A stretch of 64,000 nucleotides of DNA from Acidocella aquatica. GTDB taxonomy: Bacteria > Pseudomonadota > Alphaproteobacteria > Acetobacterales > Acetobacteraceae. Location: the NCBI RefSeq assembly GCF_030160635.1, contig NZ_BSOS01000005.1, forward strand, positions 62,001 through 126,000, written 5' to 3'. Position numbers and translations under genes: made by a program. This document shows positions 49,308 to 58,592 of the stretch, in pieces; the stretch's first letter is position 1, and the number at the start of each line of letters is the position of its first letter. A model generated the notes under the pieces. That model was not told where the DNA came from. It made no database searches and saw nothing but the letters and a program-made list of their open reading frames with translations.

Positions 49308-50150
49308 ATGAAAACCGTGCGGATTTTATCCGTGGCGCTTGCCGCTGCGGCAGTGTTGTTTTGCGGTCTCAGTGGACCTGCCCAGGCGCAGGAACAAGTT
49401 GGCTTTCAGGCTTCCGACCCCTTTACGGCAAATGAGGTCACACTCACTGCGGAGTTGAACAAGCCGCTCGGCAATGGGCCATTTCCCGCCGTCGTGGTTA
49501 TGCATGGCTGTGGCGGCTGGCAACCGGCGGTGCTGTATTCGCTTGACCTGCTCTCGGAATACCTCAGCGAGCACGGCTATGTGGTTCTGGATGTGGACAG
49601 TTTCGGACCGCGCAACCTATCGGGCGACGAGATGTGCGCCAGCAATGCGCAACTCCGGCAAGCGCTCGTCTACCGCGCCCATGATGCCTTCGATGCTATG
49701 CGTTATCTACGCGCGCAACCCTTCGTCCAACCGCAGGACATTTTTCTGATGGGCCAAAGCAACGGTGGCAGCGTGGCGCTGGAAGCCGCGGACGCCAGCG
49801 ACCTGAAATCTCTCAATGGCCCCGGCGCTTTCCGTGGCGTGGTGGCCTATTACCCGTGGTGCGGCGTATATTCTCAGCGCCCCGTGGACCTCGCCTCACC
49901 TCTGCTGATCTTTAACGGCGGCGCCGATAACTGGGTGTCCGCCAGCCAATGCACGCGTATCAAAAGCACTGGCGCGGACATTGCCGAAATCACCTACCCT
50001 GATGCCGTGCATTCATTCGACATCAACATCCCCAAGCAACTCTATCAGGGCCATTGGGTCGGCTATGACCCGCAGGCAGCCCAAGATAGCGAGGCGCGCA
50101 TGCTTGCCTTTTTCAACGCTCAGCTCACGCCTGACATCCGTCAGGATTGA
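49308..50150 (+). CDS. Secreted dienelactone-hydrolase-like protein
   Basis: 280 residues with a signal peptide ending GPAQAQ. VVMHGCGGWQPAVLYSLDLL, LDVDSFGPRNLSGDEMCA and the nucleophile LMGQSNGGSVALEA (Ser in place of the Cys of true dienelactone hydrolase) match the periplasmic dienelactone hydrolase family group. The acid and His are in NGGADNWVSASQC and DAVHSFD. The substrate is unknown. First gene of the accessory region after sdhCDAB; convergent with the following operon. Confidence 0.85.
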   Translation: MKTVRILSVALAAAAVLFCGLSGPAQAQEQVGFQASDPFTANEVTLTAELNKPLGNGPFPAVVVMHGCGGWQPAVLYSLDLLSEYLSEHGYVVLDVDSFGPRNLSGDEMCASNAQLRQALVYRAHDAFDAMRYLRAQPFVQPQDIFLMGQSNGGSVALEAADASDLKSLNGPGAFRGVVAYYPWCGVYSQRPVDLASPLLIFNGGADNWVSASQCTRIKSTGADIAEITYPDAVHSFDINIPKQLYQGHWVGYDPQAAQDSEARMLAFFNAQLTPDIRQD

Positions 50151-50156
50151 GCCGCC

Positions 50157-52352
50157 TCAGAATGGGAGCCCGGGCTCAAAGGAGAGTTGCGTGTAAATAA
50201 CGCTGCCCGTCTCGAACACGGCCTCCACCTTCACCGGTCCGCGCAAACGCTGGAATGTGCAGGTAATCTTGGTGGGCAGCAAAGATGACTGCCTGACCGG
50301 GATACTCTCCACCACCAGCGTGCGCGTCTCAGTGTTGGGCGTCTCCAGGCACATGCATCGCATCTCGGGTAGGGGCAGCCGCCTATAGGGCCAGAGTGAG
50401 AGGCTGAAGGAATTCGCCACAAAGGCCCAAGCCAGCGCCGGTTCGTACCATTCCATGGCGCTTCTGGCGGCATAGGGAATGGAGGGAATGGCCAGGGCCA
50501 GCAAGCGCAGCAGCGGGGCGCGCAGCTTGTGAAGCTCACGTATACGCCACGCGTCAGGGTCAAGATGAAGAACAAGGCCGCCACCGAAACAGGAAGTGAG
50601 GATATGCTGCCCCTCCATATCCAGCCGCGTGGTGATGTGCTCGATTTTTCCGCGTCTGTTGGGTTGGCGGAAGCGCGACGGCAGCCTGCCGGTCACGGCG
50701 ACGGTCCACACGGCCGAGCCCGGCGCTAAGCTCGTCAATATCTGATAAGTTTCCGGTTCCGGCCAGGAGGCGGCAAGAACTGTCTGTTCTTGCGGCACGC
50801 CTGATTCCCGCCAGAAACTGCCAATGCCGCGCTCGGCAAGCCGCGTCTCGTAATTGGCCAGGCGGAACGGGCTGGCCGGCGCGCCCATATGGGGTGAATT
50901 CTGCACCTGCAAATGCAGATGCGGCACCGGCGAGCGGCCTGAATTCCCCACCTTACCCAGATAAGCCCCCAGCTCCACACGCGTGCCGGCTATTACCGCG
51001 ATGCTGGATTGCTTAAGATGTGCGAGCAGCACCCAACCGCCCTGATCCATGCGCAGCAGGACATAATTCCCCCAGTTTTCCGCATAGTTGCAAACCCCGA
51101 GCTCGTTATCGGGGATATTGTCCCTCACCCGCTCGACCGTACCGGAAGTTGGCGCGGTAACAAGCGCCTCCCAGATCGACTCGCCGGGCGGCCTCTGGAA
51201 ATCAAGCGCATAACGCCAAGCCCCGGAATGGCTCAACCGGCCATTGAAGCCTTGTGTGATCTGCACAGCCCCGGTCAAAGGCACAACAAGCAACGGCTCA
51301 TGGCTGCCAAACCGGCGTACATGGTCGACCGCATATGCCCAGGCTTGTTCGGGCGGTATGTTGTGCCGCTCATTGCGCCTGATCAACGCCTCGTCCTTGG
51401 TCAGGGTGAATGCCGTCAGGCAAATCCAGATTATTCCAATCGCCGGTAGTGGCAGAAACGCCCAGGCTGGCTCCATATGCTGGATTAGTGCCGCCAGCAC
51501 AGCCGCCCCCATGCCGCCAACAACCGCCAGGCCAAGGCTCGGCCAGCCCGGCAGGAAATACGCCGCCCCCAACGCCATACCCGCAATAAAGAAGTTATAT
51601 GACGCCGGTTGCCAGTAGAACGGCACCGACAGCCCCTGCAATTGTATGGAAGTGAGTGCGCCGGCCAGCCACCCGGCAAACCCGGTGAAAACAATTATCC
51701 GCGACCACAACAGCAAGGCGAGGCCGACGATAATCCCGACCTCCAATGTCGGCGAGAACACCAGCGAGCCCAGCGAACGGATGAAAATCTGCGCATCCGC
51801 CCAAGCATTCACGGGGGCCGGCCAGACCAACAGCGTGCTCGACGCACTCTGCACCCAGAGCGGGAACAGCGTGAACAAAATTCCCGCGACAATGCTGAAA
51901 CCAAGCACCATCGGCGGGAGCAGCGTTTCGGCAAGCGCGCGCATCAGCGCGGCGGTAATAAGGCCGGCCGCGCTTGCCGCCAGCGTGGCGAGCACGATCT
52001 CAGTTTCCAATGGCGTGTAGGAGCCAGAGGTGAGCCACGCGACCGCAACCGCGCCGAGAATTGCATTGGCCCGCACGCCACCGCCCAGCGCGGGCCTATC
52101 CAGCACCCCGATTAGGCGGCCAGTGATATCGCCCACCCAAAGCCCGAACAGCCCAAAGATCAGGCTGCGCACATGCCCGGCGGTAACCGCCACCCAGAGC
52201 AGAATGCCGAGCCTGGAATCGCCGATCAAAAACGCCAACCCTAGTGCGCCACCTACCCTGGCGAGCAACAAATCTCCAGCGCGGCGCATTGGCTTGGCCG
52301 GAAACTCCAAGCAACCGCCGCGCAGGGTATTAGAATTTTCCTGTTCGCTCAT
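50157..52352 (-). CDS. Urea transporter fused to an M23 metallopeptidase domain
   Basis: 731 residues in three parts. Residues about 30-320 are hydrophobic, with many membrane segments, and resemble the urea transporter family (PF03253-like repeats such as LGGGVRANAILGAVAVAWL and PFYWQPASYNFFIAGMALG). Residues about 355-490 are an M23 (LytM) domain: zinc ligands His 375 and Asp 384 (SHSGAWRYALDF), His 445 (LLAHLK) and the HLH at 478-480. The last 230 residues are a beta-rich part of unknown type. Last gene of the PqqD/ATP-grasp operon; its stop overlaps the decarboxylase end region by one base. Confidence 0.85.
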   Translation of the reverse strand: MSEQENSNTLRGGCLEFPAKPMRRAGDLLLARVGGALGLAFLIGDSRLGILLWVAVTAGHVRSLIFGLFGLWVGDITGRLIGVLDRPALGGGVRANAILGAVAVAWLTSGSYTPLETEIVLATLAASAAGLITAALMRALAETLLPPMVLGFSIVAGILFTLFPLWVQSASSTLLVWPAPVNAWADAQIFIRSLGSLVFSPTLEVGIIVGLALLLWSRIIVFTGFAGWLAGALTSIQLQGLSVPFYWQPASYNFFIAGMALGAAYFLPGWPSLGLAVVGGMGAAVLAALIQHMEPAWAFLPLPAIGIIWICLTAFTLTKDEALIRRNERHNIPPEQAWAYAVDHVRRFGSHEPLLVVPLTGAVQITQGFNGRLSHSGAWRYALDFQRPPGESIWEALVTAPTSGTVERVRDNIPDNELGVCNYAENWGNYVLLRMDQGGWVLLAHLKQSSIAVIAGTRVELGAYLGKVGNSGRSPVPHLHLQVQNSPHMGAPASPFRLANYETRLAERGIGSFWRESGVPQEQTVLAASWPEPETYQILTSLAPGSAVWTVAVTGRLPSRFRQPNRRGKIEHITTRLDMEGQHILTSCFGGGLVLHLDPDAWRIRELHKLRAPLLRLLALAIPSIPYAARSAMEWYEPALAWAFVANSFSLSLWPYRRLPLPEMRCMCLETPNTETRTLVVESIPVRQSSLLPTKITCTFQRLRGPVKVEAVFETGSVIYTQLSFEPGLPF

Positions 52353-53782
52353 TATCTGGTCAGATGCTCCGGCATCCTCTCCGGACCGCTAATATCCTCA
52401 AGCGTCTCGCGGGCACGGATGATATCAGCCTTGCCGTCGTTGCTGATCAGCACCAACGCGGGGCGATATTGGATGAACTGCATCCATTGTGTGACGTTAT
52501 AGGCGCCCACGGGATGGATCGTGAGAATATCGCCTGTCTCCAGCGGTGGAAGATCGACATGATCCCGGATCACGTCGATGGCCATGCACAACGAGCCGTA
52601 AATACGCGACGTCACCGGCGGCGCGTCAATCGTCCGTGCCGGCAAAATCTCGAACTGATACCATGCGCTCGTATACAGCAGGTTGATGCCGGCATCGACG
52701 ACATAGCCAATGCGTGAATCCTCATTAAGGATCATGCGTTCTTTATAGGCGCGCGCTGACAACCCGCCATCGGTGAGCGCCGGTCGGTTTACGCCCTTCA
52801 CGGCGATGACTGTGCTCAGCAGATAGCCGGCCTCATCCACCAGATAACGCCCGGTTTCAAGCCGCAGTAACGGCTGCTCGCCGGGCGGCAACTCACGCAA
52901 AACATCGGTGATCGCCGTCGCGAACGCCTCTATCGGCGGCACCACCTGCTCCGCAGGCCCGGCGAAACCGTGCAACAGGCTATGCGAGGGGAAGCCACCA
53001 CCCAAATTCAGACATGGCACCAGATAATGGTATCTGGCCCGCAATGCATCCCGAAGGTGCAACAATTTTTTCGCCGTAACAGCATAGGCGTTGGGGGCAA
53101 GAATGTAGGTGCCAATATGGCAGTGCAACGTATGCAGTTGCAGATTCGGATTCTCGAGAATCCGCGCCGCCGCGCGCTCAGCCTCGCCATTTTCCAAAGC
53201 AAAGCCGAATTTCGACCACACAGGCTTGATCTCGGGATCAAGCCACACGCGTAGCCCGATATCCACGACCTTGCCATGTTGCGCCACCAGTTCCTCGGCC
53301 AGGCTCAACTCGTCCCAGTTGTCGATCTGGATCAGCGCGCCTTCTTCAATCGCCGTCTTCATCGCCGCGCGCGGTTTGTAGGGGCCGTTGAAGACGATCT
53401 CATTACCCTCAAAGCCAATCTGCCGCGCCTTTTCGTACTCGAATTGCGAAACCACTTCCGCGATCCACCCCTCGCTTTGCAAAATTTTACAGATGGCACC
53501 GAGATAATTCGTCTTCAGCGACCACGCGAAGCTGGTCTTTTGATAACGGCTCCTGAATGCCTCGCGAATCCGCTTGGCCTTGGTCCGGATGTCGTATTCG
53601 GAAAAGACAAAGAGCGGCGAACCGAACTCCTCGATCAGCCCCACGACCGGCAGCCCGTCGATTTGGAACAGCGACGGTGCCCGCGGCCCACGCGCATAAA
53701 AATTACGGTCCTCAGCTACATGCGGGGCGTTGCGTCCAAGTTCTCCGCTGATGACGGGAGGAATGTAAGAACGATCCATCAT
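52352..53782 (-). CDS. Fold-type III PLP-dependent decarboxylase
   Basis: 476 residues of the Orn/DAP/Arg decarboxylase 2 family. The PLP Lys is K90 in FAWSLKTNYLG; HCHIGTYILAP (about 220-230), NLGGGFPSHS, RLETGRYLV (phosphate and ring contacts) and the dimer-site Cys 399 in YGSLCMAIDV are all in place. It may decarboxylate a free amino acid (like LysA) or one bound to a carrier (like BtrK of butirosin synthesis). The N-terminal extension of about 35 residues is longer than in LysA. Overlaps the ATP-grasp gene by 4 bp. Confidence 0.88.
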   Translation of the reverse strand: MMDRSYIPPVISGELGRNAPHVAEDRNFYARGPRAPSLFQIDGLPVVGLIEEFGSPLFVFSEYDIRTKAKRIREAFRSRYQKTSFAWSLKTNYLGAICKILQSEGWIAEVVSQFEYEKARQIGFEGNEIVFNGPYKPRAAMKTAIEEGALIQIDNWDELSLAEELVAQHGKVVDIGLRVWLDPEIKPVWSKFGFALENGEAERAAARILENPNLQLHTLHCHIGTYILAPNAYAVTAKKLLHLRDALRARYHYLVPCLNLGGGFPSHSLLHGFAGPAEQVVPPIEAFATAITDVLRELPPGEQPLLRLETGRYLVDEAGYLLSTVIAVKGVNRPALTDGGLSARAYKERMILNEDSRIGYVVDAGINLLYTSAWYQFEILPARTIDAPPVTSRIYGSLCMAIDVIRDHVDLPPLETGDILTIHPVGAYNVTQWMQFIQYRPALVLISNDGKADIIRARETLEDISGPERMPEHLTR

Positions 53783-54876
53783 AGCCTCCTGGAAAAGTTA
53801 AAAAGCGACGAACCGGTCCGTTCTCCGGTGCTGGCTAATTCCGCAAGATCGGCAATATCACCCAGCACATCAACACAATGGCGAATGAACATCCGCCCCG
53901 GCTCGCAGGGCGCAAGCGGGGTTTGCTCCGTCTCCATCAGCCATTCCAGCAAACAGGCGGGCAGATTGCAGCCAAGTTGCGAGGGGAAATCCACCCAGGC
54001 CGGAAATCTTGGATTCATCTCAAAAACAAGATGCCGCTGCCCCGGCGCCTTGATGAGTTCCAGCTCAAAGGGCCCTGCCCAGCGGAGCGCGCGGATAAAC
54101 CGGCGGGCAAGATCGTCGATCCGCGTATCCGCCACGACCACACCAGCAAACCCCTTACCCGCCGATGTGCGCAGCATTTTCCGGATGGAACAACTACCGA
54201 TGATGCCGCCTCGGCCATCTCCCAGGCCGACAACGTCATATTCCTCGCCGACCACCATCTCCTGCACCATCACGGGCAGCCCCCACATCTCGGCAATATC
54301 CTTAAAAGCGGCGTAGAGCTCTGCTTCCGTGGCTGCCAGATGCGCCTCATAATATATCCCTTTCACATAGATCGGATACCCGATCTGCTCCGCAAATCTG
54401 GCCAATTCCACTGCATCATGCGCCATTCTCGTTTTCGGCGTGGGGATATCAATCCGGTGGCAAAGGAGCGAAAGCGCATCCTTGCGGCGCCGCAAAAAAG
54501 CCGCCTTACCCGGCAACATCATCTTGATCCCGCGATGCGCAAGAACCCCTTGCAGCTCAATATAATTCATAATTTCGGAATCGAGACACGGAATGATGAA
54601 ATCAATCTTCTCTTTCTCAAGAATGCTTTCCAGACGCTCCATGAGCGCCCGAGCGCCGGCCCTTGGATACGGCATCAAATAAACCGCATCGAGATGACTG
54701 TTGTCCCGGCAATAGATCGTGCTTTCCATCGGGTCATAAGAAAATCCGATGATCCTGACACCGGGAAACCGCCGCCGCAAACTCGCAATCACCGCGGCTC
54801 CAGGCTGCGGATTGTCGCCTCGATGCAACCCCGTAACCGCGACGGATACCGCGTTAATGGGGATTGGCTTTGTCAT
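53779..54876 (-). CDS. ATP-grasp domain ligase (CarB-like)
   Basis: 365 residues from the ATG at 54876; it overlaps the end of the PqqD-like gene by 23 bp. The N-terminal part (VAVTGLHRGDNPQPGAAVIA) is a Rossmann-like pre-ATP-grasp domain; ATP-grasp motifs are YPIYVKGIYYEA (Lys 172), VMVQEMVVGEEYDVVGLG, and the metal site FEMNPRFPAW (Glu 286, Asn 288). Such enzymes form amide or thioester bonds through an acyl phosphate. The acceptor here is unknown; the PqqD-like neighbour suggests a peptide or carrier. Confidence 0.88.
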   Translation of the reverse strand: MTKPIPINAVSVAVTGLHRGDNPQPGAAVIASLRRRFPGVRIIGFSYDPMESTIYCRDNSHLDAVYLMPYPRAGARALMERLESILEKEKIDFIIPCLDSEIMNYIELQGVLAHRGIKMMLPGKAAFLRRRKDALSLLCHRIDIPTPKTRMAHDAVELARFAEQIGYPIYVKGIYYEAHLAATEAELYAAFKDIAEMWGLPVMVQEMVVGEEYDVVGLGDGRGGIIGSCSIRKMLRTSAGKGFAGVVVADTRIDDLARRFIRALRWAGPFELELIKAPGQRHLVFEMNPRFPAWVDFPSQLGCNLPACLLEWLMETEQTPLAPCEPGRMFIRHCVDVLGDIADLAELASTGERTGSSLFNFSRRL

Positions 54877-55198
54877 GGACAAACTGATCCAACGGATCGA
54901 GGGCAACCAATTCGTTCAGAAACAATTGAACATCTCTCGCTGCCATCGCATGATCGATACCATAACGTTGCTGCATCGCCGCCGGCAGATCGGCAATGCT
55001 GACGCCACCGACAATCGAACGGAGAATAAAACTAGCAACCGCACTCAGCCGGAAAAACATTCCCGATTTGGTGTCGAACACAAATTCATCGCCATAAAAG
55101 CGCAATCCGGAAGCAGGCAGTGCCGCCACGGTAGACGCATGCTCCGCATCTGCGATAACGGCAGGATCAACGGACTTGGCAGTAAGGTGGGCATCCAT
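54854..55198 (-). CDS. PqqD-like small protein (peptide-chaperone type)
   Basis: 114 residues. The segment about 35-100 (GMFFRLSAVASFILRSIVGG, then IADLPAAMQQRYGI and VQLFLNELVALDPL) has the strand-turn-helix pattern of PqqD proteins, which bind the leader of a peptide precursor. The N-terminal 30 residues are not conserved. First gene of the operon with ATP-grasp and decarboxylase. No PqqA, PqqE or radical SAM gene is nearby, so it is not PQQ biosynthesis. Confidence 0.78.
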   Translation of the reverse strand: MDAHLTAKSVDPAVIADAEHASTVAALPASGLRFYGDEFVFDTKSGMFFRLSAVASFILRSIVGGVSIADLPAAMQQRYGIDHAMAARDVQLFLNELVALDPLDQFVHDKANPH

Positions 55199-55492: not shown

Positions 55493-57094
55493 ATGCTTTT
55501 AAGGAAACTGAGAAAGCTGGCTCTGTCAGCAACCATCTTCTCGCCTTTGGCAATTGGGGTCCTCGCGCCTTCCGCCGCGCAGGCGGGGCCTCAATTAAAA
55601 CCAACACCTTCCATTTTGCGGGTCGCTGTGCATGTAGGGCTGGAAACGCTCGATCCCATCACCACCACCGCCTATATTGATCGAACACATGGCTACCTAG
55701 TGTATGACACTCTGTTAGCAATGGACAAGAACTTCCAGCCACAACCACAGATGGTCGGCCACTGGACGGTGTCCCCGGACCAGAAGACATGGATATTCGT
55801 GCTGCGCGATGGGTTGAAATGGAGCGATGGCACCAATGTTGAGGCCGCCGATTGCGTGGCCTCGCTTGAACGCTGGGGTAAACGCGATGGTACCGGGCAG
55901 CAGTTGTTCGAAGATATCGCAAGCCTGACCGCGCCGGACAGCAAAACGATTGAGATACAGCTCAAAGCCCCGGACGATACTTTGCTGGATGCACTAGCGA
56001 AATTGTCATCGAACGTGCCGTTCATGATGCCCAAACGCATTGCCGAGACAAGCCCATACACATCCATTACCGACCCGACCGGCTCCGGCCCCTACATGTT
56101 CGTGATGAAGGACTGGGTGCCTGGCGAAAAAGCCGTGTATGTGAAGAATCCTTATTACAAGCCTCGCTCGGATACGCCTTCGCTCGCCGCGGGCGCAAAG
56201 ATCGCGCAGGCTGACGAGATCGATCTTATTCACTATGCCGACCCCAAAGCCGCGGCCAAGGCGCTGATCGATGGGTATGTGCAATATGATGAATCGCCGC
56301 CGATGAGCGTCCTGCCGATGCTCGAAGCAGACCAGAGCATTATTGTCGAACCGACATCACCGCCGGGCGCGGTTGGCATGCTCCGCTTCAACGCAGCCAT
56401 CCCGCCCTTCGATAACCCTGCCATCCGGCTTGCAGTGCTCGAGGCCATCAACCAGACCACCTACATGGAGGCAGCGTTCGGCAATGACCCGCGCTGGTGG
56501 CGCACCTGTTATTCCATCTATCCCTGCGGCACGACATACGCGACCGACTCCGGCAACTGGATTATGAAGCTGACCAACCCGCAGGCCGCGCGCTACGCCC
56601 TCGAAAACGCTGGTTACAAGGGAATGCCGGTGGTCGTGCTCGACCCGGTGGATATCCCGGTTCTCGCGGCTTTTACAAACGTCACTGTCAAGATGCTGAA
56701 AGATCTTGGCATGAAGGTCGAGGTCGAGAATATGACCTGGGACGAGATGCTGAAGCGCCGCAACAACCGCGGGACCGAAAACGGGTGGAACATATTCGAT
56801 ACCTGGTGGATTGCTGATGACATCTCCTCCCCGCAGGCGATCGCCTATTCCGGTGATCCCAAAACGGGTTGGGTAGGCTGGCCGGACGATCCGAAACTTG
56901 AAAAGGACCGCGTGGCGTTTACGGCGGCCACGACCCTGGCCGACCAGCAGGCCAAAGCCGCTCAGGTGCAAGCAGATGTACTGCAAGATGCAACAGTCGG
57001 AATTCTCGGCCAATTTTTCGAACCGATTGCTTTCAGCAAAAGCGTAACGGGTCTGACCACACCGGTCCAGTTTTTCTGGAATCTCCGGCCGTAA
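55493..57094 (+). CDS. ABC transporter substrate-binding protein, peptide type (DppA/OppA-like)
   Basis: 533 residues with a signal peptide ending PSAAQAG. LRVAVHVGLETLDPITTTAY, LVYDTLLAMDKNFQPQPQMV and FVLRDGLKWSDGTNVEAADC are the SBP_bac_5 family signatures. It binds peptides, nickel, sugars or other solutes in the periplasm. No permease or ATPase genes adjoin it, so it must use a transporter encoded elsewhere. It is divergent from the PqqD/ATP-grasp operon and might import a substrate for it or recapture its product; this is an inference. Confidence 0.92.
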   Translation: MLLRKLRKLALSATIFSPLAIGVLAPSAAQAGPQLKPTPSILRVAVHVGLETLDPITTTAYIDRTHGYLVYDTLLAMDKNFQPQPQMVGHWTVSPDQKTWIFVLRDGLKWSDGTNVEAADCVASLERWGKRDGTGQQLFEDIASLTAPDSKTIEIQLKAPDDTLLDALAKLSSNVPFMMPKRIAETSPYTSITDPTGSGPYMFVMKDWVPGEKAVYVKNPYYKPRSDTPSLAAGAKIAQADEIDLIHYADPKAAAKALIDGYVQYDESPPMSVLPMLEADQSIIVEPTSPPGAVGMLRFNAAIPPFDNPAIRLAVLEAINQTTYMEAAFGNDPRWWRTCYSIYPCGTTYATDSGNWIMKLTNPQAARYALENAGYKGMPVVVLDPVDIPVLAAFTNVTVKMLKDLGMKVEVENMTWDEMLKRRNNRGTENGWNIFDTWWIADDISSPQAIAYSGDPKTGWVGWPDDPKLEKDRVAFTAATTLADQQAKAAQVQADVLQDATVGILGQFFEPIAFSKSVTGLTTPVQFFWNLRP

Positions 57095-58312: not shown

Positions 58313-58500
58313 ACGAAGCGTACCCGCCATAACCACGCCCTGGCTTTCAAGGCCAAAGTGGCGTTAGCCGCTTGGAAGGGCGAGAAGACGTTGGCTGAAT
58401 TGGCGCAGCTTTACGATGTTCACCCGAACCAAATCACGACCTGGAAGGGGCAACTTGCGGAAGGTGCCGCCGGGCTGTTTGGCGGCGCGCCGGGCGCAGC
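58313..58500 (+). pseudogene. Truncated IS3-type transposase OrfA remnant
   Basis: TKRTRHNHALAFKAKVALAA-WKGEKTLAELAQLYDVHPNQ and ITTWKGQLAEGAAGLFGG match the helix-turn-helix OrfA start of IS3-family elements (HTH_Tnp_1). After about 60 residues the similarity stops at GLFGGAPGA, and no OrfB follows, so the element is broken. No credible start codon precedes it; no inverted repeats were identified. Confidence 0.8.
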
Positions 58501-58592
58501 AGGCCGTCATTCCAGAGAAGCATCTCTTTTTGAGGCGAGGCATCGTGATTATGTTCGGTCTCACCGGTATCAATTCTGGTGAAAGACTGAAC

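Follow-up and report, generated by a model that had tools for sequence, protein, structure and literature searches.

In the butirosin pathway (BtrJ/BtrK/BtrI), ATP-grasp ligation is followed by decarboxylation by an enzyme of the alanine racemase fold (fold III), and FigC/FslC, the N-citrylornithine decarboxylase of the rhizoferrin system (PDB entry 7kh2), belongs to the same fold. Proteins with the PqqD/RRE (RiPP recognition element) fold are found in pathways for ribosomally synthesized and post-translationally modified peptides (RiPPs), including pyrroloquinoline quinone (PQQ), lasso peptides, and the HPr-rel-A system. In the FigC report (PMC7857480), FigC, SbnH, AcsE, MccE, and BtrK are described as acting on conjugated substrates and are placed with diaminopimelate decarboxylase (DAPDC) and D-ornithine decarboxylase (D-ODC), and clade members other than these two are considered more likely to serve specialized metabolism. 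The same report states that in FigC the acid contacting the side-chain amine of the substrate is replaced by Met. Docking places a His of FigC at the citrate. Here we describe a four-gene operon in a stretch of 64,000 nucleotides from Acidocella aquatica (contig NZ_BSOS01000005.1, positions 62,001 to 126,000), hereafter the window, which encodes a PqqD-like protein, an ATP-grasp ligase, a fold III decarboxylase dependent on pyridoxal phosphate (PLP), and a membrane protein that joins a urea transporter (UT) part to an M23 metallopeptidase. Every protein family in it is already known, but as a combination the gene system appears to be new. A literature search with open-access coverage, most subscription journals lying outside it, found no description of the operon. 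We tentatively read it as the core of a conserved, unnamed biosynthesis-and-release cassette that would attach, decarboxylate, release, and let out its product, a reading that we put forward while accepting that it may well be wrong.

The cassette itself is solid. The four genes overlap on the minus strand from 55198 to 50157 in the order pqqD-like, ATP-grasp, decarboxylase, and UT/M23, and the initial annotation, which had taken them as one unit with overlaps of 1 to 23 bp, was borne out: the likeliest start of the ATP-grasp gene, the ATG at 54876, gives a 23-bp overlap with pqqD, the decarboxylase gene overlaps the ATP-grasp gene by 4 bp, and the UT/M23 gene overlaps the decarboxylase gene by 1 bp (TAATG). 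The ATP-grasp alignment, run against named genomes, returned 404 relatives, of which the best 80 loci were analyzed; these were picked by likeness to the ATP-grasp protein of the window and contain near relatives of one another (many Cloacimonadota) as well as four already known genomes of the window's genus. In 79 of the 80 loci, a PqqD relative immediately preceded the ATP-grasp gene, the remaining one having no room for it, and a decarboxylase gene was downstream in all 80. Among loci with sufficient room, the UT gene directly followed the decarboxylase in 73 of 77 and M23 was present in 70 of 74. The four loci with room but no UT gene at the expected place were L075, L078, L083, and L088, the last carrying a UT-M23 gene at the opposite side of the operon. 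The four families, whose co-occurrence elsewhere had been proposed as a test, are thus indeed found together. The loci span ten phyla as read from the labels of submitters, many of them on metagenome-assembled genomes (MAGs): Proteobacteria, Bacteroidetes, Cloacimonadota, Planctomycetes, Verrucomicrobia, Cyanobacteria, Myxococcales, Ignavibacteria, Sulfurimonas, and Chitinispirillum. Because the gene order is repeated in different phyla, the operon is more than a chance assembly of neighbors.

Within narrower groups, the cassette is patchy. A copy of the ATP-grasp gene with 77–81% identity occurs in 5 of 36 other genomes of the genus (split across two contigs in G010), and all five copies neighbor the decarboxylase, the UT-M23 gene, a dienelactone-hydrolase-family (DLH) gene, and a family 5 solute-binding protein (SBP) gene where contigs permit. 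Their outer flanks mostly differ, one flank being common to G022 and G010. In 398 genomes drawn from the phylum, the ATP-grasp protein was found at E 1e-40 or better in 37 and a UT gene in 55; 33 of the 37 also carried UT. UT frames of at least 700 amino acids fell in ATP-grasp genomes in 29 of 32 cases, and 19 further UT genomes, without such an ATP-grasp, had only shorter frames of stand-alone size. The three long frames outside ATP-grasp genomes were in G570, G455, and G481, and in G570 the cassette decarboxylase is present and cut by the contig end. The presence of the ATP-grasp gene in 20 of 74 genomes of one family indicates that the cassette is patchy and accessory, and a gene order that is constant across phyla yet patchy within families usually denotes a coherent function. 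An ATP-grasp match on a Streptomyces plasmid (25% identity) lies in a different gene context.

For the decarboxylase, a tree was built from 27 cassette copies (of 29 picked, two being dropped for length) and 21 further enzymes of fold III, taken from 13 genomes that carry the cassette and including the LysA-like and ornithine decarboxylase (ODC)-like copies of the window genome; fold III matches without a locus were left out of the reference set, and the tree contained no FigC, SbnH, AcsE, MccE, or BtrK sequences. All 27 cassette enzymes formed one clade (support 100/100, branch 1.56) apart from the 21 references, a split present in all 200 bootstrap trees, with some rows long-branched. The clade adjoins the LysA-like references (94/88) and lies outside them. 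The key residues of the window enzyme are K90, H222, R312, C399, M400, and D403; the PLP Lys, the catalytic Cys, and the Asp are retained in 27/27. The residue after the catalytic Cys is Met in every cassette enzyme but Glu or Asp in 15 of the 16 references that have a residue at this place, and the position of the diaminopimelate-binding Arg is Thr in all 27 but Arg in 9 of 15 references. Since residues recognizing both the free distal amine and the carboxylate are lost, these substitutions suggest a substrate that is amide-linked or otherwise blocked. An ordinary LysA was ruled out by the separate clade and by the invariant Met and Thr; the tight grouping with LysA that would have spoken against the initial annotation was not seen.

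Among solved structures, the best relative was 7kh2 (7.6e-50 for the window enzyme and 1.3e-53 for a Bacteroidetes member), with which the cassette shares the Cys-Met pair, the Thr of the specificity helix, and an Ala-Tyr-Asn motif. Both FigC-like hallmarks, Met next to Cys and a specificity helix that lacks the charged ODC and DAPDC residues, are present. The Bacteroidetes member scored better with the FslC profile than with LysA (224.4 versus 211.2 bits). The window enzyme reached 187.8 bits against a curated FslC cut-off of 500 and stayed under that of TIGR01048. The position of the citrate-docked His of FigC is Ile in 27/27, and citrate is therefore an unlikely part of the substrate. The analogy with butirosin, drawn at the outset, was fair for the two-step idea of ligation followed by decarboxylation, but the closest solved relative is 7kh2 rather than BtrK, which was weaker (1.4e-22), and the small-ORF (open reading frame) search described below found no linked carrier protein. 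The butirosin gene set has no counterpart of PqqD, the UT-M23-LolA protein, or the accessory genes.

The ATP-grasp protein fell under the cut-off of every Pfam model that it touched and matched ATP-grasp models of the carbamoyl phosphate synthetase (CPS) type in NCBIfam (NF009404 1e-18, under its cut-off). Its AlphaFold model (predicted local distance difference test, pLDDT, 93.8) matched 2pn1 and CPS with E 2e-20 to 1e-17, and K132, K172, E271, E273, E286, and N288 are invariant in a 38-row alignment. By its NCBIfam relatives, conserved residues, and structure model, it is identified as an ATP-grasp enzyme. The PqqD-like protein, whose assignment depended on a profile search, passed it with PF05402 above the cut-off of 23.4 bits. 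Seven NCBIfam PqqD models also matched it, all under cut-off (19.7 bits versus 46 for the PQQ model TIGR03859); none of the scanned cassette proteins reached the cut-off of any NCBIfam model.

The partners expected of PQQ and other RiPP pathways were not seen among the neighbors covered. A Pfam scan of neighbors covered 116 of 221 ORFs from 32 of the 80 loci, part of the tetratricopeptide repeat (TPR) and outer-membrane genes being left out, and a radical SAM family was absent from the 25 commonest of 168 families. The genes pqqA, PqqC, and PqqE were unrecognized among recurrent neighbors, no search having been aimed at each pqq gene. ORFs of 18–120 amino acids up to about 1.5 kb from the ends of the cassette yielded no family common beyond close relatives at the 80 loci, and thus no linked RiPP precursor or carrier protein, in a search that could miss very short, weakly alike, or unlinked peptides and was run without a targeted carrier-protein profile. 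The earlier observation that no radical SAM, precursor, or carrier family lies nearby holds in that none recurs. The features tested set the cassette apart from PQQ, linked-precursor RiPP, and butirosin-type pathways. A PqqD protein acting as a LysW-style carrier with a conserved C-terminus was likewise not supported, as the C-termini vary.

The fourth protein was modeled with AlphaFold on a 52-row alignment (the window and 51 of 66 eligible loci; pLDDT 89.6), and Foldseek matched the model to a urea-channel fold, an M23 domain, and a LolA-like C-terminal third. The urea-channel part matched the UT-B/dvUT fold of SLC14-type channels with a TM-score to target of 0.67–0.77. For the C-terminal third, the match to LolA (1ua8) had E 1.9e-4, rank 32, and a TM-score to target of 0.39; in the model, the likeness is one of fold and not of close kinship. 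Two Asn residues of urea channels are conserved (51/52 rows each), but the Gln-Thr-Gln-Thr ladder of the pore, which we take to confer urea selectivity and whose columns were matched by motif, is retained in 14, 0, 0, and 3 of 52 rows, respectively, and the protein adds a long C-terminal enzyme part that urea channels do not have. In the M23 domain, H375, D384, H445, H478, and H480 are invariant in 52/52 rows, and the first His is 9 residues before the Asp compared to the usual 4. Lys and Arg residues number about 5.8 per protein in inner loops and 1.8 in outer loops, tails excluded, the inner loops being assigned as in human UT-B. Because the positive charges sit on the inner loops of UT-B, both protein ends would be cytoplasmic, and the M23 catalytic domain, fused to a urea-channel fold unlike other LytM-type endopeptidases of the same fold and active site, is predicted to lie on the cytoplasmic side.

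A variant of the cassette provided a separate argument for this side. In G043 and G161, UT is fused to a sirtuin in place of M23-LolA (L022:12382-14097, L175:7294-8976), with SIR2 matches of 2e-32 and 1e-30 and with TQNVD, HG, and two CxxC motifs; an enzyme at the same position that depends on nicotinamide adenine dinucleotide (NAD) argues for the cytoplasm. These genes come after those for an ATP-grasp protein of two domains and for a large TPR protein, and the loci represent a distinct version of the cassette. The same two-ATP-grasp start occurs in G100, where the contig ends inside the decarboxylase.

Accessory genes differ among groups. The SBP and DLH genes accompany the cassette in 13 of the 80 named loci (L023–L028, L030–L034, L044, and L055), all alpha-, beta-, or gammaproteobacterial, in divergent, convergent, or in-line orientation. 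Both were unseen in L029, whose upstream part is cut, and in the alphaproteobacterial stretches of G043, G161, and G071. Elsewhere, a small TPR protein clusters with the cassette in 45 of 80 loci. Among the 116 scanned neighbor ORFs, no listed family other than TPR-type repeats was matched by more than three members. A downstream gene for a probable outer-membrane protein occurs at 18 Bacteroidetes, 15 Cloacimonadota, and 4 Zetaproteobacteria loci; this label is a guess, as profile searches of the PDB gave one chance match (E 1.3) or TPR-repeat proteins among the 60 listed. Near Bacteroidetes copies, several of them closely related to each other, extracytoplasmic function (ECF) sigma genes were found at 9 loci (Sigma70 region 2 and 4 models match 3 of the 116 scanned neighbors), together with genes that we take from their motifs to be CnrX/Spy-like (8 loci) and AraC/HMA-like (6 loci).

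Table 1. Features of the operon and its flanks in the window. Pfam matches for the PqqD-like protein, the decarboxylase (PF02784 and PF00278), UT, and M23 all exceed the curated cut-offs.
Feature	Position	Strand or location	Details
pqqD-like, PqqD/RRE-fold family	55198-54854	(-)	114 aa; first gene; PF05402 41.1 bits, 2.3e-10
ATP-grasp ligase, CPS-like	54876-53779	(-)	365 aa from ATG at 54876
Alanine-racemase-fold (fold III) PLP decarboxylase	53782-52352	(-)	476 aa; PF02784 90.9 bits, PF00278 45.2 bits
UT/M23 protein	52352-50157	(-)	UT PF03253 53.3 bits; M23 PF01551 44.7 bits
UT/M23 domains (fold assignments from the model)			Urea-channel fold ~20-315; M23 metallopeptidase ~350-495; LolA-like ~497-731 (residues)
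FNR/ANR/FixK-type box TTGAT-N4-ATCAA	55365-55378	between pqqD and SBP	perfect match
Family 5 solute-binding protein (SBP)	55493-57094	(+), divergent	PF00496 1.4e-61; apparent signal peptide
Dienelactone-hydrolase-family (DLH) protein	49308-50150	(+), convergent	PF01738 5.4e-17; apparent signal peptide

The box upstream of the operon is the only TTGAY-N4-RTCAA site in the window. In upstream regions of the SBP/DLH group, counted without L029 (region too short) and with 6 of 15 regions from the window's genus, an exact box was present in 4/15 and a box with at most one mismatch in 11/15, compared to 0.01 and 0.13 expected from shuffles; the nine regions outside the genus contributed one exact box and five within one mismatch. 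The genome holds 42 such sites versus 3 for a reversed control pattern, and it encodes a protein (L195) that we take to be FNR-type from its N-terminal cysteines. FNR signifies a low-oxygen response. The position of an FNR-type box upstream of the cassette suggests low-oxygen control in this proteobacterial group.

The constant association of a ligase, a presenting fold, an altered decarboxylase, and a predicted cytoplasmic amide cleaver led to the idea of attachment, decarboxylation, release, and exit, by which the product of the cassette may be a small, modified amino-acid compound set free at a membrane protein resembling a channel. First, the PqqD-like protein would present the ATP-grasp enzyme with a scaffold, probably a peptide whose gene lies elsewhere. 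Second, the ATP-grasp enzyme would join an activated carboxylate and an amino acid as an amide. Third, the decarboxylase would strip the alpha-carboxylate of the amide-linked amino acid and leave an amine. Fourth, the M23 domain, or the sirtuin in the variant, would cleave the amide at the cytoplasmic face and free the product, which the LolA-like domain may hold. Fifth, the product would exit via the urea-channel-like part. Sixth, it would be handled outside by the SBP and hydrolase in one group of Proteobacteria and by the TPR protein and the probable outer-membrane protein in many other phyla. A broader claim, which we regard as rather doubtful, is that the cassette represents a new assembly-line class in about ten phyla, with FNR-type control in some Proteobacteria, in which attached decarboxylation is coupled to cytoplasmic M23 or sirtuin release via a former urea channel. 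If this is true, one channel protein would serve as release enzyme and exit at once, and a cytoplasmic part in freeing metabolites would fall to M23 peptidases and bacterial sirtuins. The cassette could bring to light a metabolite or a modification of peptides that has gone unrecognized, a surprising cytoplasmic role for these two enzyme families, and a urea-channel fold adapted to a different cargo. Cultivable bacteria allow direct tests of the system, and the presence of an FNR-type box hints at a growth condition.

Several observations weigh against this proposal. The scaffold is hypothetical, because no general family of small ORFs that might supply a precursor or carrier lies beside the operon at the 80 loci; furthermore, the C-termini of the PqqD relatives vary, and their sole well-conserved polar residue is D89 (79/84 rows). 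The window decarboxylase scored higher with the LysA profile (207.2 bits) than with FslC, both below cut-off. With regard to topology, the charges did not agree with the initial count of helices, and the fit needed the first helix of each half to be re-entrant, as we assume for urea channels; proteins with LolA and M23 folds are usually extracytoplasmic. In the UT-sirtuins, a search for the GAG[IV]S motif was negative (the proteins read GAGTS and GAGMG), and Pfam covers only the first UT half, which makes the predicted number of helices uncertain. Two genomes of one genus, G455 and G481, have UT-M23 and TPR genes without other cassette genes nearby: no cassette PqqD or decarboxylase was found within 16 kb, and the ATP-grasp match was 15 bits only. 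Finally, the box was chosen after reading the window and then sought elsewhere, and the 63 other upstream regions are unenriched (0 exact and 3 within one mismatch, versus 0.03 and 1.6 expected).

A diffusible, metallophore-like metabolite made from free building blocks, as in rhizoferrin, is the main rival and shares the decarboxylase logic, and we consider it unlikely but worth serious attention. The ATP-grasp enzyme would acylate an amino acid, with PqqD as its partner subunit, the decarboxylase would convert the N-acyl amino acid, UT would export the product, and the SBP would recapture it. The kinship of the decarboxylase with FslC/FigC, including its shared motifs, fits this scheme; the two ATP-grasp domains of one variant could mean two acylations, and the ECF sigma, CnrX/Spy-like, and AraC/HMA-like genes of the Bacteroidetes loci point the same way. 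SBP family 5 includes binders of nickel and of opine metallophores, but the SBP scored best with the glutathione binder GsiB (81 bits), and its matches to NikA (71 bits) and CntA (40 bits) were far below cut-off. Neither an NRPS-independent siderophore (NIS) synthetase nor a TonB receptor was seen among the 25 commonest neighbor families, no targeted NIS search having been made; the citrate-contacting His is lost, and the box is of the FNR type. Such a scheme also leaves the constancy of PqqD and M23 unexplained, which are assigned to presentation and release in the attach-and-release proposal.

Modification of the cell wall, with UT as an anchor, a periplasmic M23 domain acting on peptidoglycan, and the three enzymes making or processing a wall peptide or amine, appears improbable. 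The catalytic residues of M23 are intact, its structural relatives are DipM, EnpA, lysostaphin, and LytM, and TPR and probable outer-membrane genes often lie downstream; a LolA fold is typically periplasmic. However, the C-in topology predicted from charge bias and urea-channel homology and the sirtuin at the same position in G043 and G161, which requires NAD, led us to set a periplasmic M23 aside, and no wall-synthesis family recurs among the 25 commonest neighbor families. The cell-wall role that the initial annotation had allowed for the M23 part is thus not supported. Equally improbable is uptake and breakdown, in which the SBP and UT would import a peptide- or amide-like compound, M23 would cut it, the decarboxylase would use the amino acid, and the ATP-grasp enzyme with PqqD would trap or repair: the SBP and secreted hydrolase of the 13 loci and the same-genus copies, and an FNR-type box that fits a scavenging pathway, are in its favor, but throughout, the decarboxylase comes with a ligase that consumes energy and a protein that presents a substrate, the 25 commonest neighbor families include no ABC permease or ATPase, and the SBP profile has no match in the other 67 named loci.

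Additional observations concern individual cassette genes. In three loci (L188:6974-7789, L189:6938-7732, and L192:275-1072), the first cassette gene encodes a long PqqD protein with an N-terminal TetR-like region; TetR_N was matched over the cut-off in L188 and below it in L189, a further long PqqD frame that was scanned had no match, and such a protein is perhaps a regulator sensing the pathway. UT-M23-LolA genes stand with a TPR gene alone at L199:6374-8584 and L200:7468-9654, where the membrane protein may function by itself. Some genomes hold UT-TPR proteins, and a partial urea-channel fold with TPR repeats occurs near the cassette at L179:1897-3567, L181:1075-2652, and L184:900-2948. The decarboxylase gene of a Sulfurimonas MAG (L086:9043-10370) and the UT-M23 gene of a Cloacimonetes MAG (L051:2871-5068) are each spread over two frames, by error or decay. 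At L065, L068, L069, L082, L090, and L091, an ECF sigma gene, a small membrane protein gene, and a CnrX/Spy-like gene, at positions around 6.2–7.7 kb of these loci, lie immediately upstream of the cassette, a hint that envelope or metal stress may control it in some Bacteroidetes. A short ORF at 58358-58582 (+) of the window, a few kb from the cassette, resembles what we take to be a fragment of an IS3-type transposase OrfA. On contig C73 of genome G000, five FNR-type boxes lie at about 12.6–24.0 kb near a gene for a Crp/Fnr-family regulator.

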